A stretch of 64,000 nucleotides of DNA, taken from Vreelandella halophila. GTDB taxonomy: Bacteria; Pseudomonadota; Gammaproteobacteria; Pseudomonadales; Oleiphilaceae. This document shows positions 5,240 to 43,309 of this stretch, in pieces. The notes beneath the pieces are model-generated. The model saw only the letters and a program-made list of their open reading frames with translations. It ran no database searches and was not told the DNA's origin. The DNA lies in NCBI RefSeq assembly GCF_019903425.1, contig NZ_JACHUZ010000013.1, positions 686,087 through 750,086 of the forward strand, written 5' to 3'. The position numbers and the translations under genes were made by a program. The first letter of the stretch is position 1; the number at the start of each line of letters is the position of its first letter.

Positions 5240-6227
5240 CATGGGCATGAACGAAGAGTCTCTCGAAACACCGCTTACGCGCCTTCTGGGCATCCGCCAC
5301 CCGATTCTTTCGGCCCCGATGGCCTGGGTTGCAGGTGGGCAGCTGGCCTCTGCAGTCTCGGAAGCCGGCGGGCTGGGCCTGATCGGAGGTGGCTACGGTG
5401 ATGCGGAATGGCTCGAGCGGGAGTTGGCCAACGCGGGTGACACGCCCGTCGGCGTTGGTTTCATCACCTGGAGCCTGAAGCAGAAGCCGGAACTGCTTGA
5501 CCAGGTTCTGGCACATCACCCCCGGGCCATGATGCTGTCGTTCGGGGAGCTGGCTGGGTTTGCCCAGCAGATCAGGGAAGCCGGCTGCTGCCTGCTGGCC
5601 CAGGTCCAGACCGTGGAGCAGGCAAAGAAGGCCGTGGATGAAGGGGCGGACGTCATCATCGCCCAGGGCACCGAGGCCGGCGGGCACGGTGCGAACCGGG
5701 CCACGCTGCCCCTGGTTCCCGCCGTGGTGGATGCCGTTGGTTCCGTCCCCGTGGTCGCCGCCGGCGGTATCGCGGATGGGCGCGGCGCAGCGGCGGCGAT
5801 GATGCTCGGGGCAAGTGGGGTTCTGATGGGAAGCCGTTTCTACGCCACCGAGGAATCCCTGGCGCATCCCACCGCCAAGGCGGGCGCGGCTGACGCCCAT
5901 GGTGACGATACGGTTCGCAGTTCCGTATTTGATCGGTTAAGGGGCTACGGTTGGCCGGAGCCCTACACGCTGCGCAGCGTGCGTAATCGCATGACCGACC
6001 AATGGCACGGCCATCTGCCCGATCTGGAGGAAAACCTTACCGATGAACGCGAACGGTTCCAGGCCGCGATACGGGATGCGGATTTCGACCTCGCTCCGCT
6101 TATTGTAGGTGAGGCGGTGGATCTGATTGACCGTGTGCAGACGGCACAGGAGGTAGTTGAGAGTGTGGTTTCTGGAACAGCCGCGTTGCTTGAGCGGGGG
6201 CCGGTGAATGGCTCCGTGCGCCGATGA
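5232..6227 (+). CDS. Nitronate monooxygenase / 2-nitropropane dioxygenase family
   Basis: A TIM-barrel flavoprotein of about 331 residues. The N-terminus HPILSAPMAWVAGGQLA and the FMN-phosphate region VVAAGGIADGRG plus GASGVLMGSRF are typical, and the family motif EAGGHG is present. Such enzymes oxidise alkyl nitronates with FMN and oxygen. Three close ATGs (5232, 5241, 5247) and a TTG at 5220 compete as start; none has a good ribosome site, so translation may be coupled to the overlapping upstream gene. Confidence 0.85.
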   Translation: MTDMGMNEESLETPLTRLLGIRHPILSAPMAWVAGGQLASAVSEAGGLGLIGGGYGDAEWLERELANAGDTPVGVGFITWSLKQKPELLDQVLAHHPRAMMLSFGELAGFAQQIREAGCCLLAQVQTVEQAKKAVDEGADVIIAQGTEAGGHGANRATLPLVPAVVDAVGSVPVVAAGGIADGRGAAAAMMLGASGVLMGSRFYATEESLAHPTAKAGAADAHGDDTVRSSVFDRLRGYGWPEPYTLRSVRNRMTDQWHGHLPDLEENLTDERERFQAAIRDADFDLAPLIVGEAVDLIDRVQTAQEVVESVVSGTAALLERGPVNGSVRR

Positions 6228-13005: not shown

Positions 13006-13650
13006 ATGACGGACAGGACCATCACCAAGACCGAGATCCTCAACAAGGTCTACACGGCGGATGACCACGAAAAGCTGATGGACGCCTACAAGGACTGGGC
13101 GGCCGATTACGACAGCGACCTGGAAGAGCTGGGCTACGTGGCTCACATCACCAGCGCCAAGGCCCTGGATCAGGCGCTTGGCGGGAATCATGATGCAGTG
13201 ATCCTGGACGCCGGCAGCGGTACGGGGCTGGTGGGCGAAGAGCTGGGCAAGCTGGGCTATCGCACCACGGATGCGCTGGACTATTCCCAGGACATGCTGG
13301 ACCAGGCGGAGACCAAGAACGTTTACCGCAAGCTGATCCAGGCGGACATGAAGGAACCCCTGCCGCTGGAAGACAGTGCTTACGATGCCGTCGTCTGCAC
13401 CGGCACCTTTACCTACGGCCACATTACCGCGGATGGCTTCGACGAGCTGATCCGTGTTACCCGCCCGGGCGGCATGATCGTGTTCACCGTGCGCGAGGGC
13501 GCCTACGAGGAATACGGCTACCGGAAGAAGATGCTGGACCTGGAGGTTCAGGGCACCTGGGAGCTGGTGAGCTTCTACGACACGCCCTACCAGATCGAGG
13601 AAGGCAACACCTGCAAGATGTGCACTTACCGGGTGTGCGATCCCGCCTGA
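13006..13650 (+). CDS. Class I SAM-dependent methyltransferase
   Basis: A 214-residue methyltransferase with motif I LDAGSGTGLVGEEL, then DALDYSQDMLDQAE, and CTGTFTYGHI followed by RPGGMIVFTVREG. This resembles the METTL27/WBSCR27-like group; the substrate is not known. The last 190 coding bases before the final four codons recur at 20245-20434. In this copy the protein ends with DPA; in the remnant copy the stop follows directly after the shared Cys. The gene is therefore the left border of the ethanolamine island. Confidence 0.85.
   Translation: MTDRTITKTEILNKVYTADDHEKLMDAYKDWAADYDSDLEELGYVAHITSAKALDQALGGNHDAVILDAGSGTGLVGEELGKLGYRTTDALDYSQDMLDQAETKNVYRKLIQADMKEPLPLEDSAYDAVVCTGTFTYGHITADGFDELIRVTRPGGMIVFTVREGAYEEYGYRKKMLDLEVQGTWELVSFYDTPYQIEEGNTCKMCTYRVCDPA
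13449..13638 (+). repeat. Left copy of 190-bp direct repeat flanking the ethanolamine island
   Basis: This stretch of the methyltransferase gene matches 20245-20434 without gaps. I count seven mismatches in 190 bases, and all seven are synonymous third-position changes. Confidence 0.92.
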
Positions 13651-13673
13651 TGTGGCGACCAAAGGGGCAGAGT

Positions 13674-13706
13674 GAAAGGGCCCTTGGCTGGCCCAAGAGC
13701 CCTTTC
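13674..13706. terminator. Stem-loop between convergent genes
   Basis: GAAAGGGC at 13674-13681 pairs with GCCCTTTC at 13699-13706, with inner pairing of CTTGG and CCAAG. It lies between the methyltransferase stop and the convergent aldehyde dehydrogenase stop and could serve both directions. There is no strong T-run. Confidence 0.55.
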
Positions 13707-13719
13707 AACGCCACTTGTC

Positions 13720-15240
13720 CTAGAAGAAACCCATGGGGTCCGTATCGTAACTCACCAGCAGATTCTTGGTCTGTTGGTAGTGGTCCAGGGTCATCTTATG
13801 GTTTTCCCGACCCACCCCGGATTTCTTATAACCGCCAAAGGCGGCGTGAGCAGGGTACTGGTGGTAACAGTTAGTCCAGACACGCCCGGCCTGAATGGCT
13901 CGACCCAAGCGGTACGCCCGGTTGATGTCCCGGGTCCAGAGGCCTGCACCTAGTCCAAACTCGGTATCATTGGCGATCTTCAGCGCTTCTTCCTCATCCT
14001 TGAAGGTTGTTACACCGACCACGGGTCCAAAGATTTCTTCCTGGAAGGTGCGCATTTGGTTGCTGCCCTTGAGCAATGTTGGCTGAATGTAGAAACCGTT
14101 GGCGTACTCGCCGCCCAGTTCTTCATGCCAGCCTCCGGTCAGCACTTCGGCGCCTTCCTGTTTGCCAATCTCTAGGTAGGACATGATCTGGTCAAACTGC
14201 TCGCGACTTACTTGTGCACCCACCTGAACGTCCGTATCCAACGGGTTACCCCGTTTGATGTTCTTGACGCGTTCGATCACCATTGCCATGAATTCGTCAT
14301 ACATGTCTTCCTGGATAAGCGCCCGTGATGGGCAGGTGCAGACCTCTCCCTGGTTAAAGAAGGCCAGCGCGAGACCTTCCACACATTTGTCGATGAACTC
14401 CGGCTCAGCCTTCATCACATCAGAGAAGTAGATGTTGGGGGACTTGCCGCCCAGCTCGACAGTGGAGGGAATAATGTTCTGGGCGGCGGCTTTCATGATA
14501 TGAGCGCCCACCGGTGTGGAGCCGGTAAAGGCAATCTTGGCGATGCGTGGGCTTGTGGCCAGGGCCTGCCCCGCTTCCGAACCGTAGCCGTTGACGATGT
14601 TGAGTACGCCCGGGGGCAGCAGGTCAGCAATCAGTTCCATCAGGATCAGGATACTGGCCGGTGTCTGCTCTGCCGGTTTCATGACGGTGCAGTTGCCCGC
14701 AGCCAGGCAGGGTGCCAACTTCCAGGCCGCCATCAGCAAAGGGAAGTTCCAGGGGATGATCTGGCCTACAACCCCGAGCGGCTCATGGTAGTGATACGCC
14801 ACCGTATTAGCATCGATCGCGCTGGAGGTATCTTCCTGGGCCCGGATGCAGCCGGCGAAATAGCGAAAGTGATCCACAGCCAGAGGCACATCGGCGTTTA
14901 GGGTTTCGCGTACAGCCTTGCCGTTATCCCAGGTATCGGCAACGGCCAGCATTTCGGTGTTCTGCTCGATGCGGTCCGCAATCTTAAGGAGCAGGTTCGA
15001 GCGTTCGGTGGTCGAAGTCTTTCCCCATTGCGGCGCGGCCTTGTGGGCGGCGTCGAGGGCAAGCTCTATGTCTTCCGCCGTCGAGCGTGGTATCTCACAG
15101 ATGGTCTTACCGGTGACTGGTGTGATGTTCTCGAAATAGGCGCCTTTAACGGGAGCAACCCATTCACCACCAATGAAGTTGCCATAGCGTGATTGGAAAG
15201 AGACGGTCGAACCTTGTTCGCCTGGATTTTTATAGATCAT
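13720..15240 (-). CDS. exaC: Aldehyde dehydrogenase (acetaldehyde dehydrogenase, ExaC/AldB type)
   Basis: A 506-residue NAD(P)-dependent aldehyde dehydrogenase. Visible are [14 protein letters not shown] (cofactor), [11 protein letters not shown] with the general-base Glu, and [12 protein letters not shown] with the nucleophile Cys; the C-terminus ending GFF is typical of the ExaC/AldB group. In this cluster it would oxidise acetaldehyde released by ethanolamine ammonia-lyase to acetate. It is the last gene of the eutB-eutC-permease-aldehyde dehydrogenase series, separated from the permease by 137 bases with a hairpin. The symbol is by similarity of type. Confidence 0.88.
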
Positions 15241-15260
15241 GTCTCATCCTTATTGTTTGA

Positions 15261-15280
15261 CCCCGCCATTCGCGGCGGGG
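15261..15280. terminator. GC-rich hairpin between permease and aldehyde dehydrogenase genes
   Basis: CCCCGCC at 15261-15267 pairs exactly with GGCGGGG at 15274-15280 across a six-base loop. Read on the operon strand there is no T-run after it, so it may reduce read-through or stabilise an mRNA end rather than terminate fully. Confidence 0.4.
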
Positions 15281-15377
15281 CGGTTTTGGGGAAGATGTCA
15301 TTCCAGCCTTGCAAGAGTGCTGGCTCGAATGACCGGTGCACGGAATGTTTTTCCTGATCCGTTGGCGGCTCCGGTTC

Positions 15378-16805
15378 CTATGAAACAGTGCCGGCTGTTA
15401 ACTCGCTTTCTAGGTCATGCTCTGCATGTTCAAGGAGTTCGAACTCTTCCTGGGCCGTGTTGGCCACCAGGTGATTTCTGCTGTGGAGGAAGTAATACAG
15501 CGCCCCGAGTGCGTAGAGCACCATCGTGTAGTAGAACGCTTTCGGGTCGAAGGCGTAGACGCCGGTAAACGCTACCAGCGATAGCACCAATGCCACCCCT
15601 GACGTAAAGACACCGCCAGGTGTCCTGTAGGGCCGCTCGAGGTCAGGCTGTTGAACACGCAGCAGGATATGACTCAGTGCCATAAGTCCGTAGGACATGG
15701 TTGCGCCAACTACAGCCATGGCCAGGATCAGATCCCCTTTGCCGCTCAGTGATACCAAAAAGCCCAGGAGGCCGGGCACGATCAGAGCCCAGTAGGGCGT
15801 CTTGCGCTTACCAGTCAGTGAGAGAGTTTTGGGGAGATACCCTGCACGTGAGAGAGCAAAGATCATGCGGCTGTAACCGAATATGATCGAGAAAAAGGAC
15901 GCGATCAGACCGGCCAGCCCGAGGACATTGACTACCATTGCCAGCGTCTCGTTACCGGTGGCCTGGAGGGCATGAACAAGCGGCACCCCGCTTTCGCCGA
16001 TCATGTCGGCGCCGGCCGCACCGGCCAACAGGAAGACGACGAGCAGGGCTGTGAACACCAGGAACCCCATGGCTCCAATGATCCCCTTGGGCACGTCTTT
16101 GGCTGGGTTCTTGGCCTCTTCGGCGCCAAGCGGTACGCCTTCCACCGCGAGGAACAGCCACATCGCAAATGGCAAGGCGGCCCAGATGCCATACCAGCCA
16201 AACGGGAGGAACGCCGAGGCACCGGCGGCATCGGTGACCGGGATGTTGAACAGGTTGGCGGTGTCAAAATCACCCACCAATGCGACAGCCGTGGCGAGAA
16301 TCGCAAAAACTGCCAGTCCACTGATGGCCATCATGACCTTCAGGGCTTCACCGACACCAATGATGTGGATGCCTATGAAAACACCGTAAAACGCGGCGTA
16401 AACCCAGGGGCCATTAATGCCAAGAAGCTCTTCAACAGCAGCGCCGATAAAGGTCACTATTGCCGCCGGCGCAAGTGCGTATTCAATCAGCACTGCAAGA
16501 CCAGTCAGGTAGCCACCTGCGGGGCCCATGACTTGCCTTGCGAAGCTGTAACCGCCGCCAGCTGTGGGAATTGCCGCTGACATTTCAGCGAGGGATAAAA
16601 CCAGGGTGAAGTACATTGTGCCCATAAGGGCCGCAGCGATGGCGTAACCGCCCCAACCCGCCTGAGCAATTCCAAAGTTCCAACCAGCAAAGTCACCGGA
16701 GATAACGTACGAGACGCCCAAGCCTGCCAAAAGAATCCATCCGGCGCTGCCGCGTTTCAATTGACGTTGGGCAAGGTATTCCTGATCAACCGATTGTTCA
16801 GACAT
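15378..16805 (-). CDS. eat: Ethanolamine permease (APC family)
   Basis: A 475-residue amino acid/polyamine/organocation transporter with about twelve membrane segments. The N-terminal region GVSYVISGDFAGWNFGIAQ is characteristic of the Eat ethanolamine permeases, and SAAIPTAGGGYSFARQVMGP is the usual APC segment. The ATG at 16805 has AGAGG seven bases upstream. Placement between eutC and the aldehyde dehydrogenase gene matches the Pseudomonas gene set for ethanolamine use without a microcompartment. Confidence 0.9.
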   Translation of the reverse strand: MSEQSVDQEYLAQRQLKRGSAGWILLAGLGVSYVISGDFAGWNFGIAQAGWGGYAIAAALMGTMYFTLVLSLAEMSAAIPTAGGGYSFARQVMGPAGGYLTGLAVLIEYALAPAAIVTFIGAAVEELLGINGPWVYAAFYGVFIGIHIIGVGEALKVMMAISGLAVFAILATAVALVGDFDTANLFNIPVTDAAGASAFLPFGWYGIWAALPFAMWLFLAVEGVPLGAEEAKNPAKDVPKGIIGAMGFLVFTALLVVFLLAGAAGADMIGESGVPLVHALQATGNETLAMVVNVLGLAGLIASFFSIIFGYSRMIFALSRAGYLPKTLSLTGKRKTPYWALIVPGLLGFLVSLSGKGDLILAMAVVGATMSYGLMALSHILLRVQQPDLERPYRTPGGVFTSGVALVLSLVAFTGVYAFDPKAFYYTMVLYALGALYYFLHSRNHLVANTAQEEFELLEHAEHDLESELTAGTVS

Positions 16806-16837
16806 TTTCAAACCTCTTGTTGTTTTTGGAAAAATAA

Positions 16838-17671
16838 CTAGGAGACAAGGAAGTTCTTGGACCCGGCCTTATGCTCTATCACATCATCGTCAGTCCTCTC
16901 CTTCAGTTGGACGCCACTCAGTTGCCGCCGGAAAGACTCACTCAGCAGGTGCACGACTCTGCTGCTCGCTTCCGGATATCGAAGGCCGGCCGGTCGGACG
17001 TTGGAGACACAGTTCCGGTCGGCATCGGTCAGCCCGCGACAAGGCCCCCAGGTCAAATAAAGCCCGAGGCTATCCGGGCTGCTCAGGCCCGGGCGTTCAC
17101 CGATGAGCACCAGCACCGCCCTGGCATTCAGTAGCTCGCCCACGTCATCTCCGATCGCGACCCGCCCCTGCTGGACCACGGTCAGGGGAGCCAATTGCCA
17201 GTCGCGATGCTCATCCGCCTCTAGCTCCCCAAGCAGAGCCTCCAGAAATGGCGGTGCATGCGTCTGTACCGCCAGTGCCGAAAGCCCATCCACCATGACT
17301 ATGGCCAGGTCAGAGGCGGTTGCTGGTTGCTCAGTCTGTTGGTGTAGGCGTTGTCGGGATTCGGAAGACAGCACTCGGCCCAGGTCAGGACGTTGCACGT
17401 AGGTCATCCGGTCGGCGGCCTGCGTTTGCAGCTGTAAAGGCGGCTCAATGGTGAAGGGCGACTCAATCGCCATAACCTGCTCACAGAGCGCTTCCACGTT
17501 CAGCGGCCAATGGACGGCATCGCGCGCCTGGGCGTGGGCCATCTGGAACGCCAGAAGCTGATGCGTCGGCAGGCTTACCCCGGTGCAGCCCAAGCCGATG
17601 CGCGCATCCGTGAACGCCTGTAAACGGTCCCAGAGGCTGTCAGTACTGGGAGAATGATTGCCTTCAGTCAT
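16838..17671 (-). CDS. eutC: Ethanolamine ammonia-lyase small subunit
   Basis: A 277-residue EutC. Recognisable parts are DARIGLGCTGVSLPTHQLLAFQ.. at the N-terminal third, given here by its ends, and LVLIGERPGLSSPDSLGLYLTW, also by its ends, near the middle: the GERPGLSSPDSLG motif is diagnostic. With EutB it forms the coenzyme B12-dependent enzyme that splits ethanolamine to acetaldehyde and ammonia. The ATG at 17671 overlaps the eutB stop by eight bases; an upstream ATG at 17692 is possible. Confidence 0.92.
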   Translation of the reverse strand: MTEGNHSPSTDSLWDRLQAFTDARIGLGCTGVSLPTHQLLAFQMAHAQARDAVHWPLNVEALCEQVMAIESPFTIEPPLQLQTQAADRMTYVQRPDLGRVLSSESRQRLHQQTEQPATASDLAIVMVDGLSALAVQTHAPPFLEALLGELEADEHRDWQLAPLTVVQQGRVAIGDDVGELLNARAVLVLIGERPGLSSPDSLGLYLTWGPCRGLTDADRNCVSNVRPAGLRYPEASSRVVHLLSESFRRQLSGVQLKERTDDDVIEHKAGSKNFLVS

Positions 17672-19076
17672 TTGAGGTAACTCCTGGAACATTGCCCAAT
17701 GAGCGCGCGAACTGTTCCGGTATCAGATCGTTAAGGTGGGGGCCGTTGGCATCCGTGAAGATGCCCATTTCGGTGAGCCAGCGCTCGAATTCAGGGGCGG
17801 GGCGGAGACCGAGAGCCCGACGAGCGTAGAGCGCATCGTGGAATGACGTGGTCTGGTAATTGAGCATGATGTCGTCGGAGCCGGGAATCCCCATGATGAA
17901 GGTGCAGCCAGCTACACCCAGCAGGGTCAGCAGGTTATCCATGTCATCCTGGTCGGCCTCGGCGTGATTGGTGTAGCACACGTCGCACCCCATCGGAACG
18001 CCCAGGAGCTTGCCGCAGAAGTGGTCTTCAAGCCCCGCCCGGATGATTTCCTTGCCATCGAACAGGTATTCGGGTCCGATGAAGCCAACCACGGTATTGA
18101 CGAGTAATGGATTGAACTTGCGGGCCACGGCGTAGGCGCGCGCTTCGCACGTTTGCTGGTCCAGTCCGTGATGGGCATTGGCGGAGAGGCAGCTGCCCTG
18201 GCCGGTTTCAAAGTACATAACGTTGTTGCCGGCGGTACCACGGTTGAGCGACAGTGCGGCATCTTCGGCTTCCGCCAGTGTGTTCAGATTGAAGCCGAAA
18301 CTGCTGTTGATGGCTTCCGTTCCACCGATGGACTGGAAGACCAGGTCAACCGGTGCTCCCTGCTCAATTGCTTCGAGAGTGTTGGTGACGTGAGTCAGAA
18401 CACAGGATTGGGTTGGTATCTGGTACTTCTGGATCACCTCGTCCATGAGTTGCATGAGCTTCATAGCCTGGGGCACGTTATCCCGGGCCGGGTTAATACC
18501 GATGACCGCATCACCACTGCCGTACAGCAGCCCATCCAGAATGCTGGCGGCTATTCCGGTGGCGTCATCAGTGGGGTGATTGGGTTGAAGCCGGGTTGAG
18601 AGATGGCCGGGCAAGCCGATGGTATTTCGAAATGCCGTCTGGATTTGGCACTTGCTGGCGACCATGATCAGGTCCTGATTGCGCATAACCTTGCTGACCG
18701 CGGCTGCCATCTCTGGCGTGATGCCGGGCCTTATTGATGCCAGCACATCAGGCGTTGCCTGGTCGCTGAGCAGCCAGTTGCGGAAGTCGCCCACCGTCAG
18801 GTGTGAAATGGGGGCGAAAGCCTCGGGGTCATGCCCGTCAATGATCATCCGCGTTATCTCGTCGTCTTCGTAGGGGATCAGAAGGTCCTCAAGAAAGGTC
18901 TTGAGTGGCACGTCTGAAAGCGCCATCTGAGCTGCAACACGCTCCTCGGCTGTCAGTGCGATAACGCCTGCCAGGCGATCACCGGAGCGCCCGGGCGTTG
19001 CTTTCGCCATGAGTTGCGCAAGTCCATCGAACCGGTAAGCTTTTCGTCCGAGCGTATAGCTGTATGTCCTGCTCAT
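17664..19076 (-). CDS. eutB: Ethanolamine ammonia-lyase large subunit
   Basis: A 470-residue EutB from the ATG at 19076 (MSRTYSYTLG), with AGGTGA upstream; longer readings would enter the promoter region. Diagnostic segments are GINPARDN, SCVLTHVTNT, FQSIGGTEAINSSFG and YFETGQGSCLSANAHHG, which line the barrel that holds substrate and the adenosyl group of cobalamin. No EutA reactivase or microcompartment shell genes are nearby, so this is a minimal cytosolic route. Confidence 0.95.
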   Translation of the reverse strand: MSRTYSYTLGRKAYRFDGLAQLMAKATPGRSGDRLAGVIALTAEERVAAQMALSDVPLKTFLEDLLIPYEDDEITRMIIDGHDPEAFAPISHLTVGDFRNWLLSDQATPDVLASIRPGITPEMAAAVSKVMRNQDLIMVASKCQIQTAFRNTIGLPGHLSTRLQPNHPTDDATGIAASILDGLLYGSGDAVIGINPARDNVPQAMKLMQLMDEVIQKYQIPTQSCVLTHVTNTLEAIEQGAPVDLVFQSIGGTEAINSSFGFNLNTLAEAEDAALSLNRGTAGNNVMYFETGQGSCLSANAHHGLDQQTCEARAYAVARKFNPLLVNTVVGFIGPEYLFDGKEIIRAGLEDHFCGKLLGVPMGCDVCYTNHAEADQDDMDNLLTLLGVAGCTFIMGIPGSDDIMLNYQTTSFHDALYARRALGLRPAPEFERWLTEMGIFTDANGPHLNDLIPEQFARSLGNVPGVTSND

Positions 19077-19268
19077 TGTGAGATCACCTTTGGACGTCAA
19101 TCTGAATGCCCTTGGAAACGACCCTAAAGAGCTCGACATCCTGGGTGGTATCAAGATTTGGCAAATTAATGACCGGGCGTGAGGATCGGCATCGAAAGGG
19201 GCGTTGACCGGGCTGAGATTCTGCTATGTTGGGTTGGGGTGTGGCCCTAGGAAAAGGAGGCTGTGTTG

Positions 19269-20222
19269 ATGCAACCCGATAATGAGGCGGCTGAAACGGG
19301 CCTTTGCACAATGAAAGCCCATGATGCGGACAGGCACGCCCGCAACCTGACCCACTGGCGCCAGGAATATGACCAGATCAGTTGTGGCCATTTCTATGGC
19401 CGTCTGGATGAACTCGAGCTGTCACATGTTCAGGTTTTCAAGGAACACACCAGCCAAGCTTTGCGCCAACAGTGCAGCGTCTGGCCGAATGGACTCTGGC
19501 TGGGGATTCCTGCCTTCCAAGGAAAGGAAAGCAGTCGGATCAACGGCCTTGTCATTGATACTAATGATATCTTCTGCCGCCCTGGGGGATATGACTTTGA
19601 GTTGGTTACTCCCGTTGGATTCGATATCTTCGGCATTGTTATTGACCAACAAGTGCTGAACCGTACAGCAGAGATTCAAGGCATCAAACTCTGGGAGGCT
19701 GCGGAGCACCAATGCCCGCGTCTGGCTGTGCCAGCTAGAACTCTGGGAAGGATTCGGTTGCTGCTGGACCAGATTCTGAATGCAAAAGAGTCGCCTGTTC
19801 TGCCCGAGCTTCAACAGGAAATGGTAATACTTGCCCTCATGGAGCTTTTGCATGAGAAAGCTCCCAACATGAAAGCAGTCCCGAGCTATCGCCACCGCAA
19901 ATTCGTGGTCAGTAGGGTGAAAGAGTACATCAACGAATATAACGATGCGCCAATCACCATGACCGACCTGTGCAAGCTCACGAATGTGAGTCGTCGAACG
20001 CTCCAATACAGTTTCGAATCCATTATTGGTATCAGCCCGATGCAGTTTTTGCGGATGACCCGACTTAATCGCGTTCGCCGCTCCCTCACCCATGAGCCCC
20101 ACGTGTCTGTTGCAGACATAGCAGCTTATTGGGGATTCTGGCATGGAGGTCAGTTTGCTAAGGATTACAAGCAGCTCTTTGGTGAAACCCCGTCAGAAAC
20201 CCGCGGGAAAGCTTTGGGGTAG
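19269..20222 (+). CDS. eutR: AraC family regulator, EutR-like
   Basis: A 317-residue regulator with a C-terminal double HTH: TMTDLCKLTNVSRRTLQYSF and then SVADIAAYWGFWHGGQFAKDY. The second helix text (YWGFWHGGQF) is typical of EutR-like proteins, and the long N-terminal domain fits an ethanolamine/B12-responsive activator. AGGAGG at 19255-19260 favours ATG 19269 over GTG 19263. It is divergent from eutB, so it is the likely activator of the island. The symbol is by context. Confidence 0.8.
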   Translation: MQPDNEAAETGLCTMKAHDADRHARNLTHWRQEYDQISCGHFYGRLDELELSHVQVFKEHTSQALRQQCSVWPNGLWLGIPAFQGKESSRINGLVIDTNDIFCRPGGYDFELVTPVGFDIFGIVIDQQVLNRTAEIQGIKLWEAAEHQCPRLAVPARTLGRIRLLLDQILNAKESPVLPELQQEMVILALMELLHEKAPNMKAVPSYRHRKFVVSRVKEYINEYNDAPITMTDLCKLTNVSRRTLQYSFESIIGISPMQFLRMTRLNRVRRSLTHEPHVSVADIAAYWGFWHGGQFAKDYKQLFGETPSETRGKALG

Positions 20223-20244
20223 ATCACACCGACAGAAGTAATCA

Positions 20245-20437
20245 GATCCGCGTTACCCGCCCGGGCGGCATGATCGTGTTCACCGTGCGCGAGGGCGCCT
20301 ACGAGGAATACGGTTACCGGAAGAAGATGCTGGATCTGGAAGTGCAGGGCACCTGGGAGCTGGTGAGCTTCTACGACACGCCCTACCAGATCGAGGAAGG
20401 CAACACCTGCAAGATGTGCACCTATCGGGTGTGCTGA
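20245..20437 (+). pseudogene. 3' remnant of the methyltransferase gene; right border of ethanolamine island
   Basis: These 193 bases encode only the last 63 residues of the methyltransferase at 13006, beginning mid-gene (IRVTRPGGM) with no start or 5' part, and ending with its own stop right after the conserved final Cys. Compared with the intact copy it has seven synonymous differences and no amino-acid change over the shared part. It is thus a truncated allele that had been under selection until recently. It sits between eutR and the RND permease gene. Confidence 0.9.
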
Positions 20438-20454
20438 GGGGCCATTAAGGCCCC
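20438..20454. terminator. Hairpin after methyltransferase remnant
   Basis: GGGGCC at 20438-20443 pairs exactly with GGCCCC at 20449-20454 over the loop ATTAA. It is between the remnant's stop and the convergent RND gene's stop, so it probably was the original terminator of the methyltransferase gene. Confidence 0.55.
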
Positions 20455-20455: not shown

Positions 20456-23400
20456 CTACTCCTTGGCGCGGATACCCATGAGCCGCACATAGCCCGCCGG
20501 CAGCACCAGGATGGTCAGAACCGCGGCGAAGGCCAGCCCGAACATGATCGCCAGCGCCATGGGGGCCCAGAAGGGGCCGGAAAGCGCCAGCGGGAGCATG
20601 CCGAGCATGGTCGTGGCGGCGGTCAGGAGGATGGGCCGCACGCGGCTGGTTGCGGCCTCGCCAATGGCCTCCAGCGTACCGCTTTCGGCCAGCGCCATGT
20701 CCATTTTCTGGATCATGACCACAGCATTGCGGATGATCATGCCGGAGAGACTCATGGTTCCCAGAAGGGCCATGAAGCCGAACGGCTGCTGGAACAGGAG
20801 CAACCCGATGCTGACACCAACCAGCCCCAGAGGCACCATCAGCATGACCAGCAGGGTGCGCCGGAATGAATTGAACTGGGCCATGAGCACAAGCACCATC
20901 AGGCCAAGGATCACGGGGACGGGTTTCAGAACACTCGCACGCGCCTCGGCGGACTGGTGCACCTCGCCGTCCCACTGTGTCTCGTAGCCCGAGGGCAGCT
21001 CTACGTCCTCGATTTCGGAGGCCAGTGATGCCCGCACGCCGGACGCGGTAGTGCCGGGGGCCAGGTCCGCCTGGAGCGTAATGGCCCGTTCCCGGTTGTG
21101 CCGCCAGATCACCGGGCGCTCCCAGTTGAGTTCGATATCGGCGACCTGGGTGATGGGCACGGGCTTACCGCCGCTCTCAGGCCAGACGACCATGGTTTCA
21201 AGCTCGGACGGGTCCGTCCGCTCGGGCAGCGGGAAGCGCCATACAATGGGGATCTGCTTGTCGTCCTCGCGGAAGATGCCGACACCCTGCCCCGCAAAGG
21301 CCGTGTTCAGGGCCTGGTTGATACTCTCCGTGGTGACCCCGGCACGCCGGGCCCGATCCTGGTCCACATCAACGGTCACCCGGGGCTGACTCTGGCGCCA
21401 GTTGTGCCGGAGGTTCGTGACGCCCGGGTGCTCAGCCATGATGCCCTGCAGCGTTCCGGCCGTATCGAGCAGCTGCTCCCGATCCGGTCCGGTGACCCGC
21501 AGCTGGAGCGGGAATCGCACGGGCTCGCCAAGCTGCATCGGCCGCACCCTTGGTTCGGCTTCGGGGTAGCCCTTGGCCAGGTGATCCCGGACCCTGGCCA
21601 TGACCGGATCGACATCTACCTTGGTCTCAACATTGACCAGGATCTGGCCGAACGCCGGGTTGGGTGTTCGAGGAATCATGGGCAGGTAAAACCTCGGAGC
21701 GCCCTCTCCGATGAAGGCGGTTACGTCGGTCACCGCGTCCATTTCCAGAAGGTGTTCCTCAATCCGAGCCATGTCCTCGCTGGTCTGCTCGATGCGACTG
21801 CCTTCCGGGAGCCAGTAATCGACCATGAACTGGGAGCGCTCGGCCGGAGGGAAAAAGGTCTGTGGCACGAAACTGAAGGCAACGGCACTGGCGGCAAAGA
21901 CCACGAGAGCGCCGGTTGTGAGGATCCAGGGTCGCTGGATCGAGCCCCCGATAAGGCTGTGGGCCCATTGATAGAAGGGCCGATCCGCCGGGTCGCCAAG
22001 CCTGCTCTTGCTGTCCAGGAGCCAGTAGTTCATCAACGGTGTGGCAAAGACCGCCAGAAGCCAGGATATGGCGAGGCTGATGGCGATGACCCAGAACAGG
22101 GAGCGCGTGAACTCGCCCGTCGCGGTGTTGGTCAGGGCAATGGGTGCGAATGCCAGAACCGCGATCGCGGTGGCTGCCAGCAGGGGCCAGGCGGTTTCCT
22201 GGACGGACTCGACGGCGGCTTTCAGGCGCTCAGTGCCGCGCTGCATCTTCACCTGCATCAGCTCGGAGATGACGATGGCGTTGTCCACAATCATGCCGAG
22301 GACGATCACCAGGGCCCCAAGGGATACCCGGTGAAGCTCAATGCCCATCATGTACATGCCCATGAAGGTGGCGAGAATGGTCAACGGGACCCCGAGCCCG
22401 ACCACAAAGCCGGTGCGCAGACCCAGTGAGACCATCAGTACGGCCAGGACAATGGCTACGGCAGTGGCGAGATTGATCAGGAATTCGCCAACGGCCTGTT
22501 CAACTTCTTCGGACTGCAGTGCGATGCCGCCAAACTCAATGCCGACGGGCATCCGAGCTTCGATCCGCTCAAGCTCCTTCTGGACCCGTTCGGTCAGCTC
22601 CACCACGTTGGCGCCTTCGGCCGGAACCACGCCAAGCGCGAGAGCGGACTCACCCTCATGCCGCAGGCTGGCGTCCGGTGGGTCGGCGTAACCGCGCCTG
22701 ACCTCCGCAAAATCGCGCAGCTGAACGAGCCCGCCGGTCACCGGGCTGCGGATGTTCAGTCTGGCCAGCTCGTCCACGGACTCAAAGGTGCCGGTGGCGT
22801 TGATCTGCAGCCGCCGGGAGCCCATCTCAGTGAAGCCGCTGGGCGCCACCACGTTCTGCTTGTTGAGGGCATTCACCACCAGGGCCGGGGTCAGCCCCAG
22901 TTCCGCAATCTTGGCGCGGCTGGTTTCGATGTAGACACGCTCACCCTGGTCGCCGAACAGGTCGACCTTGGCCACGTCATCAACACGCAGCAGGCGCTGC
23001 CGGAGATGATCGGCAATGTCATTGAGCTCGGCGTAGCTGTAATCGGCTCCTTCCACGGACAGCAGCATGCTGTAGACATCGCCGTAGTCGTCATTCACGC
23101 GCGGGCCTTTCACGGAATCGGGCAGGCTGGCGCGGGCCGTGAGGACCTTCTTGTTGAGTTCATCCCAGATCTGGCGCAGTTCCTCGCCACCGTACTGGTC
23201 CTTCACCTCAACGTAGATGATGGAGGTTCCGTTCCGGCTCATCGATTCAATGCTTTCCAGCTCACCGAGTTGCTGGATCTGTTTTTCAAGGGGTTCGGTG
23301 ACCTGCTGTTCCACCCGTTCCGCATCCGCTCCCGGATAGCCGGTCATAACGATAGCCGTGCGGATCGTGAATTCGGGATCCTCAAGCTGCCCCAGCCGGG

Positions 23401-23497
23401 TGAATGCAATGATTCCCAGAAGGGTTACCAGAAGGACCAGAAATCCGACAAAGCGATTGCGGCTGATCGCACCGCGCACCAGTTGCCCCAGCATCAC
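20456..23497 (-). CDS. RND efflux transporter permease (AcrB/HAE1-like)
   Basis: A 1013-residue inner-membrane pump subunit with twelve membrane segments in two repeats and two large periplasmic domains. GMIVDNAIVISELM and SGMIIRNAVVMIQKMD lie in the TM4 and TM10 regions; the Asp in the first is the proton-relay site, while the second repeat shows Asn-Ala as in some divergent family members. It overlaps the adaptor gene by four bases. No outer-membrane channel gene is adjacent. Substrates cannot be predicted. Confidence 0.9.
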   Translation of the reverse strand: MMLGQLVRGAISRNRFVGFLVLLVTLLGIIAFTRLGQLEDPEFTIRTAIVMTGYPGADAERVEQQVTEPLEKQIQQLGELESIESMSRNGTSIIYVEVKDQYGGEELRQIWDELNKKVLTARASLPDSVKGPRVNDDYGDVYSMLLSVEGADYSYAELNDIADHLRQRLLRVDDVAKVDLFGDQGERVYIETSRAKIAELGLTPALVVNALNKQNVVAPSGFTEMGSRRLQINATGTFESVDELARLNIRSPVTGGLVQLRDFAEVRRGYADPPDASLRHEGESALALGVVPAEGANVVELTERVQKELERIEARMPVGIEFGGIALQSEEVEQAVGEFLINLATAVAIVLAVLMVSLGLRTGFVVGLGVPLTILATFMGMYMMGIELHRVSLGALVIVLGMIVDNAIVISELMQVKMQRGTERLKAAVESVQETAWPLLAATAIAVLAFAPIALTNTATGEFTRSLFWVIAISLAISWLLAVFATPLMNYWLLDSKSRLGDPADRPFYQWAHSLIGGSIQRPWILTTGALVVFAASAVAFSFVPQTFFPPAERSQFMVDYWLPEGSRIEQTSEDMARIEEHLLEMDAVTDVTAFIGEGAPRFYLPMIPRTPNPAFGQILVNVETKVDVDPVMARVRDHLAKGYPEAEPRVRPMQLGEPVRFPLQLRVTGPDREQLLDTAGTLQGIMAEHPGVTNLRHNWRQSQPRVTVDVDQDRARRAGVTTESINQALNTAFAGQGVGIFREDDKQIPIVWRFPLPERTDPSELETMVVWPESGGKPVPITQVADIELNWERPVIWRHNRERAITLQADLAPGTTASGVRASLASEIEDVELPSGYETQWDGEVHQSAEARASVLKPVPVILGLMVLVLMAQFNSFRRTLLVMLMVPLGLVGVSIGLLLFQQPFGFMALLGTMSLSGMIIRNAVVMIQKMDMALAESGTLEAIGEAATSRVRPILLTAATTMLGMLPLALSGPFWAPMALAIMFGLAFAAVLTILVLPAGYVRLMGIRAKE

Positions 23498-24621
23498 TGG
23501 ACCACCCCGCCTTCAAGGCGGCTGACCTTCTGGCCTTCCTCCAGGTGCTGGGCACCAGCGACAACGATCTGTTCGCCGGCACTGATCTTGCCGGTAATCC
23601 TGACACTGTCCGCTTCCAGGGATTCCGTGGTGACCGGGCGGGACGCCACCTCGCCGGAGTCCGGATCCCAGACCCAGACATGGGGTTGATCCTCTTTCTC
23701 GAACAGGGCCTCCACCGGGATCAGGAAACTGTCATCCCAGGGGGTGTCCGTGAGGCTGGCCTTGAACGAGACTTCGGCGGTCATACCCGGCAGCAGTTCG
23801 CGCTCGGGATTGTTCACAGCAACCCGGACCGGATAGGCCTGGGTGTCCGGCGAGACATCCAGGCGGACGTTCTCGACCCGAGCGTCAAAGATCCGGTTAT
23901 CCAGGACGGGCATGTAGACGTGGACGTCCTCCAGGTGATTGCGGAACTGCATCAGGCGCTCCGGGATGCTGACCTCGACTTCCACGGTCTCGATATTGTC
24001 AATCGAGAATACCGGGCGTTGCGGGCTGACCTGCTCGAACGGCTCCACCATGCGGCGGTTGATCACCCCATCAAACGGGGCTTCGAGTACGGTGTCATCA
24101 AGGGCTGAACGGGCGGTTTCAAGCGCTTCCCGGGTGGCATTGCGTTTGGCGCGGGCCTGTTCATAGGCGCTTTCGAGTCGGTCGAATTCGGCATCGCTGA
24201 TCGCGCCGGTGTCCACCAGTTCTTTCCCGCGCTGCCAGTTCTTGCGGGCTTCTTCCAGTGTGGCCCGGACCGAGTCCAGTTGGCTCTCGGTCTCACGCAC
24301 CTGCAGGCGGAAGTCCCTCTGGTCCAGTTGGCCGAGGGTGTCCCCTTCACTGACTTCATCGCCAACGTCCGCGTTGAGCGTCTCAATCTGGCCGGGCACC
24401 CGGAAGCTCAGGGTTGTGGTCTCGGCGGGCTCAACGCGGCCACTGAAACGGCGTGAGGCCAGTTCAGAGGGGGTCTCGAGGGTCATCATCCGGGCAGGCC
24501 GGATGGGCTTTTCGTCGTTCGTGGCCGGGGTACTGCCTGAATTGCCGTCACAGCCGCCGAGCAGCAGCAGGATGACCGGTATCCAGAGGTAACGCCCGGG
24601 GTGGGAGCAGAGGTGGGTCAT
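23494..24621 (-). CDS. RND efflux periplasmic adaptor lipoprotein (MFP)
   Basis: A 375-residue membrane-fusion protein. The start at 24621 gives a lipoprotein signal (PVILLLLGGCDGN); longer readings add a poor N-terminus. FRVPGQIETLNADVGDEVSEGD is the lipoyl half-motif (given by ends FRVPG and VSEGD), followed by a long coiled-coil hairpin around residues 90-155 and the second lipoyl half VLEAPFDGVINR. The TGA overlaps the permease ATG (ATGA), so it is the first gene of a two-gene operon. Confidence 0.9.
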   Translation of the reverse strand: MTHLCSHPGRYLWIPVILLLLGGCDGNSGSTPATNDEKPIRPARMMTLETPSELASRRFSGRVEPAETTTLSFRVPGQIETLNADVGDEVSEGDTLGQLDQRDFRLQVRETESQLDSVRATLEEARKNWQRGKELVDTGAISDAEFDRLESAYEQARAKRNATREALETARSALDDTVLEAPFDGVINRRMVEPFEQVSPQRPVFSIDNIETVEVEVSIPERLMQFRNHLEDVHVYMPVLDNRIFDARVENVRLDVSPDTQAYPVRVAVNNPERELLPGMTAEVSFKASLTDTPWDDSFLIPVEALFEKEDQPHVWVWDPDSGEVASRPVTTESLEADSVRITGKISAGEQIVVAGAQHLEEGQKVSRLEGGVVQ

Positions 24622-24833
24622 GAAACGGGTCCCTGTTGCATCTGAGTAATCTGGCTGGGGCGGTATTCTGAGCCTGGCAGTGGTTTTCCGCAATCTGTCG
24701 GAAGTGATAGTACGGGCCTGATCCATCAGGTTGCCGCCGCCCCTTAATCTGGGCTGCTTCTACATACTGGCCATAAGGCCGTCATGATTATTACTGGGGC
24801 CCTGATTCCACTTTAGTGCCTGTGTGGCCCAGT

Positions 24834-37298: not shown

Positions 37299-37857
37299 GG
37301 CGCCGCTCTCAGTCGCGCCAGCCCATCAGATCACGGGCTTTTGAGGCGTAGAGAGGCCTGTGTTCTGAAGGAAGTCTAGGATAGCGAGCTGAAGAGGGAG
37401 GTTTGGGCGCAGATTGAGTTTTATGAATGGTTTGGTAGGATTTGGTCCGATTCTCAAAAGTGGACTGCTGGTTTGCAATCAGCTTTAAGCAAGTGATAAC
37501 GTCTTTCACTTATCCTCTTTTGAGGATAGATGGTTCGAACACCACCTTAATAAAATTAGCATGTTGATCTGTACGATCAGCGTCGGCCCGGCAAACAAGG
37601 AGTGCTTGGCGAAAAGGAAGAAAACGGTTTAGCTTGGCAGGATGCTGGGCGGTCGGTCACTACAGACCGGCTTTCAGAGCGTGAGAGTCATACCGCTCGC
37701 CGCTTAACCCTCCCCATCCTTCTATTAAATCATCCTTTTACTGCATGCCGAGCGTTTTTGTTTGTGATCGGCTAGGGAGCAGCACGGCGCTGTATACACG
37801 GCGCCGGGCTAATACAGGGGCGGAGCCCCATGATAGCGACGAAAAGGAGATCTAGGC
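37299..37857. other. 559-bp intergenic region upstream of the Tad locus
   Basis: I see no credible gene here. AGCCC at 37320-37324 pairs with GGGCT at 37335-37339 followed by TTT, a weak terminator for the acyl-CoA-binding protein gene. TATCCTC/GAGGATA forms a perfect hairpin at 37511-37528. GGCGC (37786-37790) pairs with GCGCC (37801-37805). GGGGC/GCCCC forms a tight hairpin at 37817-37829, shortly before the flp ribosome site. The length and structure suggest a regulated leader for the pilin gene, or a small RNA. Confidence 0.45.
37511..37528. promoter_or_regulatory. Perfect 7-bp inverted repeat in the Tad upstream region
   Basis: TATCCTC (37511-37517) and GAGGATA (37522-37528) around TTTT. 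It could be a regulator site or an RNA hairpin; there is no further evidence. Confidence 0.35.
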
Positions 37858-38139
37858 ATGAGACAATCCATCCTGACAAGGAAGCGCAATCTGGGTCAGG
37901 GCATGACTGAGTACATTATCATCACCGCCCTGATCGCGATCGCGGCAATCGGCGTCTACAGCATGTTCGGCGAAACCGTTCGGAACCAGGTTGCCGGTAT
38001 GGCGCAGGAGATGCGCGGTGAAGACGCGCAGGACGAAATTGATGCGGCAGGGGATGCTGCTGATGACGCCACAGATACGGCCGACACAACAGTTGATCTC
38101 GGCGACTATAACGATACAGGGTCAAGCGCCGCAGACTGA
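37858..38139 (+). CDS. flp: Flp-type IVb pilin
   Basis: A 93-residue pilin. The class III leader ends at Gly14, and the mature protein would begin QGMTEYIIITALIAIAAIGVY (ends QGMTEY and IGVY), with Glu at +5 and Tyr at +6 as in Flp pilins. The mature C-terminus is unusually long and acidic, rich in Asp and Ala (about 40 residues). A strong ribosome site (AAAAGGAGA) precedes it. It is the first gene of the Tad locus and separated from the next gene by 99 bases with possible hairpins, so it may be expressed in excess. Confidence 0.88.
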   Translation: MRQSILTRKRNLGQGMTEYIIITALIAIAAIGVYSMFGETVRNQVAGMAQEMRGEDAQDEIDAAGDAADDATDTADTTVDLGDYNDTGSSAAD

Positions 38140-38238
38140 CAGATAATTCCATCCGCAACGGGTGGCGCTCGCCTTCCGGCTTGTGCCGGGAGGGAGCGTT
38201 CTGGGGTAAACGGACGAACCGCACAAGGATGAAGAAAG

Positions 38239-39804
38239 ATGCGTGCCAGGTTGCTGACCATTAAAAACCCTCCCTCAAGTCGACAGCGTGGTTACGCTAC
38301 GATTTTTACGCTGCTGCTTTTTGTTGCGGTAGCGCTTGTCGTTTTCTCCATCTACGACGTCGGCCAGACCAATACTGACAAGGTTCGTCTTCAGAATGCT
38401 GCCGATGCAGCTGCCTATAGCGGCGCCAATATGATGGCCCGTGACTTTAATTTTATGGCCTACACCAATAGGGCGATGGTCGCCAATCAGGCCGCTATTG
38501 GGCAGGTGATTGGCATGGCTTCGTGGACAGCGCAGATCGACAAGACCACTGAGAATATCCGGCGCGTTTCCAACGTTGCTGCCGCCATTCCGGTTGTTGG
38601 GCCGATTGTCAGGGGAGCAGCTCAAGTGCTCGATCAAGTCACGGACATACTCAATCGGGTCGTGGAAAGGGTCGGCGCCGTGCTGATCAGCGGCCTTGAT
38701 GCTGTCAATTTCGGGCTTTCCCGTGCCCAGTTGGGTCACCATGGTGCGACGCTTGCTACTGCCCCCAATACACTGAGCGCAGTCCTTCAGGAGAATGACC
38801 CGGACGCACGGCTCGGTCTGGCGGGCAATGCGCTGTTCTGGGAGAATTTTTTTGAAGCCTGGGAGGGGTATGTCAGCCACAACAAGCATGACCGTGGTCT
38901 TCCAAGAAGGGGCGAAAGAAGAGACTTTATGGTCGAACGTTTCGAGGAATTCACCGAAATCGTGAACCACTCGACCGATGATTTCACTCATGAACGAAAT
39001 AAAAGATGGTTGGATCCTCCTACGGGGTTTTTAGGTGTCAGGGGCAGAATGGACAAGCGTGGTGGCAACGAGTTCGAGATGCGGGATAATCGTGCCCGGA
39101 ATCGCCTGGAATGGAACTGGAGCGCCATGGATACCGAAAGCTTCTGGATCGATCACAAAGGGTGCGGCATGCTTGGTTTCAGCTGGTGCGGTTACAATGA
39201 AATCCTTCCCGTTGGTTGGGGAGCGGCCCATGGCAAGGACCATGAAACCTTCAGCAGGCGTTTTATTTATCGGCCCTCCAATAAATGGGGCGATGCGTGG
39301 CACAACTCGACCTCAGCAGGACTCGCGAGCGTCCAGTTTGCCACGAACAACATTCGTAAGATTAGTGGCCTCAAGGGTTATTATGATTTTGCCCGCGATA
39401 AAGACCCGAAATACAACGCTGACCTGGAGCCTGGCGATACCAGCGATGGCCCTTCGCTAGGGGTATTTGCTCACAAGCGTGCCAGCGACATAACCACCAC
39501 CAGAACCCTGGCTGACAAGCACGAGGGATTCCCGGACAGCGCTGCCCTTGATGTCGAAGAGCAGGGCGGGGCGGCCAGCAACATGATTGGTGCCCTCTCG
39601 CGCGCGGAATTGTATTTCAAGCGACCGAGCAACCTCTGGCCGAAACGCGGAACCCGGGAGGGCCGCTACGTAGGAAAGCGCGAACACGGTAACCTTTACA
39701 ACCCCTATTGGCAGGTTCGCCTCACGGAGCCCACCTCGGTACAGCGGGCAGTTGCTGTGGCCCGAGCTTTCGGACTGAGCAATCTTTCTTTCATGAACAA
39801 CTGA
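38239..39804 (+). CDS. TadG-like Flp pilus assembly protein
   Basis: A 521-residue protein. After a short basic start it has one membrane segment (YATIFTLLLFVAVALVVF) followed by VRLQNAADAAAYSGA, the hallmark of TadG/TadE-G-like N-terminal domains. The remaining 450 residues are periplasmic, and I see no von Willebrand A domain with a MIDAS motif, unlike classical TadG. It probably anchors or scaffolds the pilus machine in the envelope. The C-terminal part is not recognised. Confidence 0.75.
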   Translation: MRARLLTIKNPPSSRQRGYATIFTLLLFVAVALVVFSIYDVGQTNTDKVRLQNAADAAAYSGANMMARDFNFMAYTNRAMVANQAAIGQVIGMASWTAQIDKTTENIRRVSNVAAAIPVVGPIVRGAAQVLDQVTDILNRVVERVGAVLISGLDAVNFGLSRAQLGHHGATLATAPNTLSAVLQENDPDARLGLAGNALFWENFFEAWEGYVSHNKHDRGLPRRGERRDFMVERFEEFTEIVNHSTDDFTHERNKRWLDPPTGFLGVRGRMDKRGGNEFEMRDNRARNRLEWNWSAMDTESFWIDHKGCGMLGFSWCGYNEILPVGWGAAHGKDHETFSRRFIYRPSNKWGDAWHNSTSAGLASVQFATNNIRKISGLKGYYDFARDKDPKYNADLEPGDTSDGPSLGVFAHKRASDITTTRTLADKHEGFPDSAALDVEEQGGAASNMIGALSRAELYFKRPSNLWPKRGTREGRYVGKREHGNLYNPYWQVRLTEPTSVQRAVAVARAFGLSNLSFMNN

Positions 39805-39858
39805 CTCAGTCGTGCGGTGCCCAGAACCGCTTTTAATCCAACACGCAAGGGAGGTGTA

Positions 39859-40974
39859 ATGATGAAATGGAACAAGATTCTGATCCGGCCGGCGGTTCTG
39901 GGCGGCATGGTTTTGGTGGCGGGGTGTCTGGGGTCATCGAGTGGGGGGGGCGAGGGCGCCGGATCCGAACAGAGTGAGGCCAATACGGTCAGTGATCACG
40001 AGTCGGCTGTGAGCCTGGCCAGTCGCTCCATTTGGTTCGATGTTTCTGTTGAGGTGTTTTCGATTCCGATGCAGGCAGTGGCTCTCGGACATATGGGAGA
40101 AGAGCCCATTGAATGGTTTTTTTGGCGGCAGCTCCTTGCACCGGAAGGGGTTGACACTATCGCGCCCGAGGGCGGTCCCGTGAAACCGGACTGCAGTGAG
40201 GGATCGGTTGACTTTGCCGATTCAAGTAAGAGCTTCGAGGCCGTCTATACAGACTGTCGTATCCCTGCCCCGGACGTAACGGCACCGGGCATAGGGGGTG
40301 CCCTTATGGAACTGGGTCTTGATCAGCCCCAGGTCTGGAACGGGACCCAGCGCTTTGAGCGTCAATTGAATACCCCCGATTGGAAGCGCGTTTACGCAAT
40401 AGAACATGACAATATGACGTTTTCCGTCGAGGGCGCGGATACCCCGTTTATGGTGTTCGATGGGGGGGGGATGATGGTTCGATACAATGCTATCAATGAC
40501 ATTGAGTTTGAGGGCTCCCTGAGAGCAGGCGTTTTATTGCCGGTTCTTACAAATACAAAGCCGAATAGGTCAGTTAATACAAAGGCGCCCACGGAACTCA
40601 CCTTTCGGGACTATACAAATGTGGATGTGGCATGGCAGCCCGATGGGCTCGAAGGAACCAAGGTCAGCGGTCGGATGGAGGTCGACATCCAGGCTACGCC
40701 GCCCGCGGAGATACCGGACAACGGCTGGTATGGGCACTGGATCGTTGAAACCAAGGAGCCCATTCGTTATGCGGAAACTGAAACAACGGATACTAATCCC
40801 ATTGATGGTGAGGTTCATATAACCGCGGAAGATGGCAACACCATCAAGATCGCCTTTGAACAGTCCGGTTTTTTCCTGGACGGCGTGTTCGTGTCCTGGG
40901 AGCGAAAGAAAAAGTTTAATGAAGGCGAGGAATCTATAGGGCGCTTTGTGAAGGAAAACTTCCCGGGCTCTTAA
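39859..40974 (+). CDS. Lipoprotein of unknown function with two poly-G tracts
   Basis: A 371-residue protein with a lipobox (LVAGCLGSS) giving a lipid-linked Cys near residue 28. GGAGGTG lies just before the paired ATGs at 39859 and 39862. The mature part is rich in aromatic and acidic residues and resembles nothing I can name. Runs of eight G (39943-39950) and nine G (40462-40470) lie in frame in the coding part and could cause frameshifting by slippage. Context suggests an envelope component of the Tad system. Confidence 0.7.
   Translation: MMKWNKILIRPAVLGGMVLVAGCLGSSSGGGEGAGSEQSEANTVSDHESAVSLASRSIWFDVSVEVFSIPMQAVALGHMGEEPIEWFFWRQLLAPEGVDTIAPEGGPVKPDCSEGSVDFADSSKSFEAVYTDCRIPAPDVTAPGIGGALMELGLDQPQVWNGTQRFERQLNTPDWKRVYAIEHDNMTFSVEGADTPFMVFDGGGMMVRYNAINDIEFEGSLRAGVLLPVLTNTKPNRSVNTKAPTELTFRDYTNVDVAWQPDGLEGTKVSGRMEVDIQATPPAEIPDNGWYGHWIVETKEPIRYAETETTDTNPIDGEVHITAEDGNTIKIAFEQSGFFLDGVFVSWERKKKFNEGEESIGRFVKENFPGS
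39943..39950 (+). repeat. Poly-G tract (8 G) near the lipoprotein N-terminus
   Basis: Eight consecutive G in codons 29-31, directly after the lipidated Cys region. Loss or gain of one base would end the protein early. Confidence 0.85.
40462..40470 (+). repeat. Poly-G tract (9 G) in the lipoprotein gene
   Basis: Nine consecutive G encoding Gly-Gly-Gly between FD and MM. It is the longest homopolymer I noticed in the window. Confidence 0.85.
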
Positions 40975-41005
40975 TTACGCAGTTGCGAGAAGAGGAGGAT
41001 ACAGG

Positions 41006-41470
41006 ATGGTCATTGAGCCGATGCCGCGGGGGGTCAAGCGAATGAGGCAATGTCTGGCCACAGCGCTGATGCTGGGGCTTTTTTCTGGAAGCGTTGTAGC
41101 GGAGAGTGCGCCATCATTGCAGGGAAAAGAACCGTACGAATTAATAATGGATTCTTGGGAGCTTATAAAGTGGGAGCAGAAAACGCCAGAGGATCATATT
41201 TGCCTTCAGTGGCTCCATGAGGCCCGAGGGATTTATAAGAAATTTACGGATGAGGGGGGGCAGACACCTGAATCGTATAAGAAGTCTATTCGCATGCACT
41301 TTCCGGAGGGTAGCGTGGGCTATGTGCTGAATATGCTTGCCACTGATGCAACCGTGGCGGGTAAATCGGCGGAGGAAGTGGGAAAACTTGTCTGGGAAAA
41401 GTGTCAGGAATACGATCCGTTTTATGTCTTTCCAGGTAAGAAACCGAACCCGGAGAAAAAGAAGGAGTAA
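41006..41470 (+). CDS. Exported protein of unknown function in the Tad locus
   Basis: A 154-residue protein with a signal peptide (ALMLGLFSGSVVAES). AGGAGG at 40993-40998 fits the ATG at 41006. The mature part has two cysteines (ICLQW and EKCQEY) and a basic tail ending KKKE. No family recognised. A run of seven G (41254-41260) is also present. Its placement inside the operon suggests a periplasmic accessory role. Confidence 0.65.
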   Translation: MVIEPMPRGVKRMRQCLATALMLGLFSGSVVAESAPSLQGKEPYELIMDSWELIKWEQKTPEDHICLQWLHEARGIYKKFTDEGGQTPESYKKSIRMHFPEGSVGYVLNMLATDATVAGKSAEEVGKLVWEKCQEYDPFYVFPGKKPNPEKKKE

Positions 41471-41476
41471 CCCACC

Positions 41477-42343: not shown

Positions 42344-42384
42344 CCGGTTAGCGCGATAAACGCCATGGAGTGGCTGCTTTGAAG

Positions 42385-43077: not shown

Positions 43078-43088
43078 GGAGGATCAAC

Positions 43089-43271: not shown

Positions 43272-43309
43272 CCAACTTCAAATTTCGATTTTTTTAAATG
43301 GAGCAGTAC

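Follow-up and report, generated by a model that had tools for sequence, protein, structure and literature searches.

A second methyltransferase 3' end beside the ethanolamine operon of Vreelandella halophila: probable joining of two alleles by a recent, one-sidedly homologous recombination event

How did an ethanolamine catabolic operon in the halophilic bacterium Vreelandella halophila come to lie between an intact methyltransferase gene and a second copy of the end of that same gene? The question is raised by a stretch of 64,000 nucleotides (assembly GCF_019903425.1, contig NZ_JACHUZ010000013.1, positions 686,087 to 750,086), referred to here as the window and numbered from its first letter. 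To the left of the operon, which is also called the island below, stands a gene for a class I S-adenosylmethionine-dependent methyltransferase of 214 amino acids (13006-13650, forward strand; Pfam Methyltransf_11). To its right, behind a eutR-like regulator gene, stands the 3' end of a second methyltransferase allele (20245-20437, forward strand), which lacks codons 1-147 and all of codon 148 except its last base, and which has its own stop codon at 20435-20437. The most likely explanation is that the two alleles were joined by a recent recombination event with homology on one side and an illegitimate joint on the other, in a genus in which the island itself appears to be old.

The repeat search identified 13449-13638, which on the forward strand covers the final base of codon 148 and codons 149-211 of the intact gene, and 20245-20434 as a direct repeat of 190 nt, ungapped and 96.3% identical (blastn E ~1e-84). 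The initial annotation had counted seven mismatches, all synonymous, and had taken them to mean that both alleles diverged while functional; both statements held. Codon comparison of left and right copies over codons 149-211 gave seven synonymous and no nonsynonymous differences (46.2 synonymous and 143 nonsynonymous sites). In these codons, 22-30% of random substitutions would be silent, and seven out of seven would be so with a probability of between 2.5e-5 and 2e-4, according to the transition bias that is assumed. With Halovibrio salipaludis YL5-2 (G002, L003), 'Vreelandella utahensis' 22507_15_FS (G004, L004) and Tamilnaduibacter salinus (L014) as outgroups, reading of the codon table placed four of the silent changes on the left copy and two on the right copy, and one was ambiguous. 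In a neutral right copy, ~12 replacement changes would be expected when the four silent changes of the left copy serve as the clock, and 6-9 when its own two to three silent changes are used. None was observed, which has a probability of 2e-3 to 4e-6, depending on the silent changes used as the clock. A decaying duplicate was rejected on this count. Because no replacement change was found where 6-12 were expected, the right copy belonged to a working gene until recently. On the codon evidence, the repeats are taken to be two alleles that diverged under selection and were both functional until recently. No third copy of the methyltransferase was found in a whole-genome DNA search, which returned the left and right copies only.

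The genus group comprised five genomes, including that of the window. The methyltransferases of H. salipaludis and V. utahensis are full-length orthologues, 92% and 94% identical to that of the window, respectively. In V. utahensis, the island is absent and the methyltransferase, whose coding sequence forms the repeat that flanks the island in the window, is intact and runs straight into the same stop codon, hairpin and RND gene, with an end like the right copy of the window. An island-free relative with exactly this order had been predicted by the initial annotation. H. salipaludis carries the methyltransferase, the same island and the RND gene at the same site, without the right fragment; here, eutR passes directly into TGAGGGGCC, which is the methyltransferase stop codon followed by the hairpin. 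The two halves of its methyltransferase end sum, at the stop codon, to the island-free end of V. utahensis, as expected from a simple insertion there. Both island states are thus present in congeners. In G001 and G003 (68% complete), there was no island (no EutB match at E <= 1e-50), no close methyltransferase (the best match in G001 is a 36% relative, and G003 has none) and no RND match at E <= 1e-200. As findings that would speak against it, the initial annotation had named an island with both copies in all relatives, or island-free relatives without the methyltransferase. H. salipaludis has the island without the right copy and V. utahensis is island-free with the gene; G001 and G003 are island-free without the methyltransferase, but because the RND gene is missing there too, the whole locus is missing and these genomes are uninformative on island-free relatives. 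In T. salinus, only the 3' end of the methyltransferase stands before the RND gene, with replacement changes and one lost base, and no island was found within the 20 kb examined.

The ends of the two alleles were also compared. The left allele ends in Asp-Pro-Ala-stop and a hairpin (13639-13719, forward strand), between the methyltransferase and the convergent exaC gene, and tail and flank are similar in H. salipaludis. The hairpin behind the right fragment (20438-20454, forward strand) is identical in V. utahensis, changed at one base in T. salinus and at two in H. salipaludis. Its sequence, GGGGCCATTAAGGCCCC, folds with a weak z of -1.5, and 16 of 200 shuffles folded equally well. Similarity between the left tail and the right hairpin was considered as a sign of a target-site duplication and rejected, as its score was reached by 458 of 2000 shuffles with the H. 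salipaludis tail and by 1056 of 2000 with the window tail.

The initial annotation had regarded the left gene and the island as newcomers, to be recognized by the codon divergence of the island compared with its flanks. The comparisons did not show this. H. salipaludis has the island at the same site. Across 2039 island codons, the synonymous divergence (dS) between the window and that genome is 0.42, compared with the median of 0.37 obtained for 34 core open reading frames (ORFs; Mann-Whitney p = 0.51). The genes ohr and ohrR and the methyltransferase likewise have a core-like dS to H. salipaludis. The core set was obtained from 40 ORFs by removing six with near-zero dS in all three comparisons, which are probably in the wrong frame; of the remaining 34 rows, two with 83 codons each and identical values probably represent a single match counted twice. 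H. salipaludis and V. utahensis were the closest pair in 34 of the 40 ORFs, a count in which the six removed ORFs are included. Core dS, taken from four further genome regions, had medians of 0.335 and 0.348 for the window against these two relatives, and was 0.154 between the relatives. On account of its core-like dS, a recent entry of the island into the genus was rejected. Because it occupies the same site and is as divergent as the core, the island is judged from these comparisons to be old in the genus: it would have been split between the lineages for as long as the core genes, or have come from sources equally far apart. The recent part is solely the joint of the island with the right fragment.

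In the window, the island genes have a GC content at third codon positions (GC3) of 0.58-0.70, and in H. salipaludis of 0.55-0.67. Outside the island, GC3 is 0.76-0.89 for all but one of the 12 other window genes measured (the one at 9190 has 0.65), and 0.80-0.84 for the two flanking genes analyzed in H. salipaludis. The low GC3 in both genomes suggests an older import from outside the genus. No near source was found: the best EutR match outside the genus was 57% identical among 390 genomes of the order (own genome included), and 59% in one genome of the family (L072; 20 loci examined). The best full-length EutB outside the genus group reached 81-82% among 163 genomes of the family and 82% among 369 of the class. 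G089, also of the family, was rejected as a near donor, since its EutB is 89% identical only over the conserved middle (residues 114-398), with two frame breaks, 61-63% identity on either side and a dS of 1.24 to the window. Plasmids in PLSDB gave no indication of an origin either, as all 50 methyltransferase matches (E <= 1e-5) and all 898 RND protein matches (E <= 1e-100) were less than 60% identical.

Between the eutR stop codon and the right fragment lie 22 junction bases (20223-20244), whose best ungapped match in the loci of H. salipaludis, V. utahensis and T. salinus is 14-15 of 22. With up to three mismatches allowed, the joint occurs only once in the own genome (25-base pattern including the eutR stop codon). 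Possible homologous anchors are the methyltransferase with its upstream flank and the RND flank, both of which are conserved in H. salipaludis and V. utahensis. The import by homologous recombination proposed in the initial annotation is insufficient in its both-ends version: because 20223-20244 has no detectable homology, and homologous recombination at both ends cannot make such a joint, the joint is regarded as illegitimate. In the explanation given at the outset, the right fragment would be the methyltransferase 3' end of an island-free chromosome of the same genus group, and the left gene an allele with the island behind it. One recent recombination event would have joined both. Its homologous side would lie either in the methyltransferase and the sequence upstream of it or in the RND flank; on its illegitimate side, the eutR end would have been connected to codon 149 of the other allele across the ~22 unmatched bases. 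The island probably entered earlier, from a source of lower GC and behind the methyltransferase stop codon, and would then have diverged with the host lineages. That there was a single event, its type and the outside origin of the island are what we infer from these data.

Several observations weigh against this explanation. No strain with the exact partner alleles was found; the relatives that could stand for donor and recipient are more distant, with island-free V. utahensis and island-bearing H. salipaludis both at a core dS of ~0.35. Because these two are sisters by core genes, the absence of the island in V. utahensis requires an extra step: the island may have been lost there or replaced by an island-free allele, or H. 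salipaludis may have gained it separately. The order in H. salipaludis could also have arisen by a later deletion that ended at the stop codon by chance, which is possible and less likely. In a tree of the 190 bases, none of five topologies was rejected by the approximately unbiased test at 0.05 (lowest 0.064); the best of the five groups the right copy with the Tamilnaduibacter fragment.

Two other origins of the right copy were weighed. It could descend from a simple duplication within one lineage and have been kept like the left copy by gene conversion, for which repeats of 190 bp with 96% identity would be suitable; moreover, both window copies have in common replacement states at codons 157, 182 and 184 that are absent from the two close relatives. 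A useless copy should, however, gain replacement changes after the last conversion, and there are none beside seven silent ones, which makes this origin rather improbable. Still more doubtful is the proposal that the fragment was born at the original island insertion and later lost in H. salipaludis by a microhomology deletion. A 3-base overlap (CTG) can indeed be read at the H. salipaludis joint, but this would make the fragment older than the split of the lineages (core dS ~0.37), and it should be full of replacement changes; in addition, the end of the deletion would have had to coincide with the stop codon.

For the favored explanation, the joining of two alleles, the direction of the exchange has to be weighed together with the right flank. 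The convergent right-hand neighbour is a gene for an RND efflux permease (20456-23497, reverse strand; PF00873); of 163 family genomes, only those of the window, H. salipaludis, V. utahensis and Tamilnaduibacter (G161) have this permease at an identity of at least 90%. From 20732 to 24711, the window alleles of the RND and membrane-fusion genes are unusually far from both relatives, with a dS to both of 0.70 for RND and ~0.9 for the fusion protein, while the relatives differ from each other by 0.10 and 0.22, respectively. The window alleles are about equally far from both congeners and from Tamilnaduibacter, and this star-like pattern suggests an allelic replacement of the efflux genes. From these distances, foreign alleles probably entered the right side, either in the window or in the ancestor of the relatives. 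The tract starts near 20.73 kb, ~300 bases inward, and its link with the right fragment is not established; the tract may stem from an allelic replacement of its own or form the distal portion of the same import. A further shift lies inside the methyltransferase, where H. salipaludis is often the odd one to the left of ~13.28 kb and the window to the right. Because the three-way signal changes inside and beside the locus, alleles are considered to have been exchanged here before.

An island-free strain with the right allele and the RND gene may have received the left allele and the island from a congener, by homologous recombination on the left and illegitimate recombination on the right. Such an import would bring a selectable function, which would matter to a strain like V. 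utahensis, for which no EutB match was found at E <= 1e-50 and in which the island-free locus has a gene end of the right type. The left flank and the island, from ohr and ohrR to eutR, are nevertheless no more foreign to the window than to H. salipaludis, and the clearly odd alleles of the region sit to the right; this course is a reasonable candidate that falls short of being probable. In the opposite direction, which fits about equally well, an island strain with an order like that of H. salipaludis, a plausible starting point, would have received the island-free methyltransferase end and the right flank, with homology on the RND side and an illegitimate joint at the eutR end. The anomalous RND and fusion-protein alleles of the window, about as far as those of Tamilnaduibacter, are in line with this. 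Against it, the anomaly begins near 20.73 kb and not at 20.245 kb, and the right methyltransferase fragment is not anomalous, having seven silent differences to H. salipaludis, the same number as to the left copy. This direction is possible yet somewhat doubtful. The direction is left open, with a slight preference for the import of the left allele and the island because of the function gained.

The proposed event resembles homology-facilitated illegitimate recombination (HFIR), a known process, and works like it without being a proven case. HFIR is described in three competent species, and at a low rate in E. coli (PMC3240628). The window and that description have in common one homologous anchor, one non-homologous joint, a gain of genes and a piece of the old gene left at the joint; here, however, the event is deduced from one genome and its relatives, and its direction is open. 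An HFIR-like process has also been proposed for the type VI secretion clusters of V. cholerae, where, according to PMC5361080, orphan immunity genes and a 3' effector end stand behind displaced modules. There as here, the 3' part of the displaced allele stays downstream of the incoming module, whereas the window has a methyltransferase and a catabolic operon with one fragment and no array. A similar process was put forward, in PMC2884548, for variable segments in bacterial genomes. The locus is ordinary in kind, an example of a known event type and not of a new mechanism. Its value lies in the clean trace that allele exchange has left around a catabolic operon; the silent-only divergence ties the fragment to a recently working gene.

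The island comprises five genes, all of eut or exaC type by family models, and contains no integrase. On the reverse strand lie genes for an ExaC-type acetaldehyde dehydrogenase (13720-15240; NF050026, 956 bits, cut-off 900), an ethanolamine permease (eat, 15378-16805; TIGR00908) and the light and heavy chains of ethanolamine ammonia-lyase, eutC (16838-17671; PF05985, NF003971) and eutB (17664-19076; PF06751, NF011649). All four exceed their NCBIfam cut-offs. The fifth, on the forward strand, encodes an AraC-family regulator (19263-20222) whose best NCBIfam match is EutR, with 224.5 bits under the cut-off of 319. At this locus, no shell gene lies between the operon genes. As in the ethanolamine catabolism of Acinetobacter baumannii (PMC9426561), eutBC would be used without a metabolosome; the order here, in contrast to that type, is exaC-eat-eutC-eutB/eutR behind a methyltransferase. 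A second EutB, ~70% identical and with EutC adjoining, is encoded elsewhere in the window genome (G000:C13:1823900-1825219) and also in H. salipaludis (G002:C19:237796-239121). A literature search for Halovibrio and ethanolamine, the sole one directed at this locus, found no paper.

The right fragment could also make the fixed island excisable, as RecA exchange between the 190-bp alleles would, because all differences are silent, restore an intact methyltransferase beside the RND gene. Such scars might yield island-free strains like V. utahensis, with the methyltransferase 3' end as a recurrent exchange point; this suggestion is speculative and on balance unlikely. Methyltransferase breaks in three genomes, namely the right copy of the window (equivalents of 13449-13474), the Tamilnaduibacter fragment (~9981 of L014) and an internal deletion in a methyltransferase remnant of Halospina denitrificans (~5554 of L017, remnant at 5500-5605), fall within 26 bases around the 12-base palindrome CCGCCCGGGCGG in codons 152-156, a coincidence noted post hoc. 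V. utahensis lacks the exact palindrome. In the examined stretch of H. denitrificans, none of the 10 locus proteins had a match elsewhere at E <= 1e-10. Upstream of the Tamilnaduibacter fragment, an ORF on the opposite strand (9700-9980 of L014) presumably resembles REP-type transposases.

Farther to the right in the window, 37304-53685 gave no blastn match at E <= 1e-20 in the examined parts of H. salipaludis and V. utahensis. By reading of the translations, the ORFs at 38239-50715 resemble a tad/flp pilus locus, and they are followed by a transposase-like ORF at 50821-51771.

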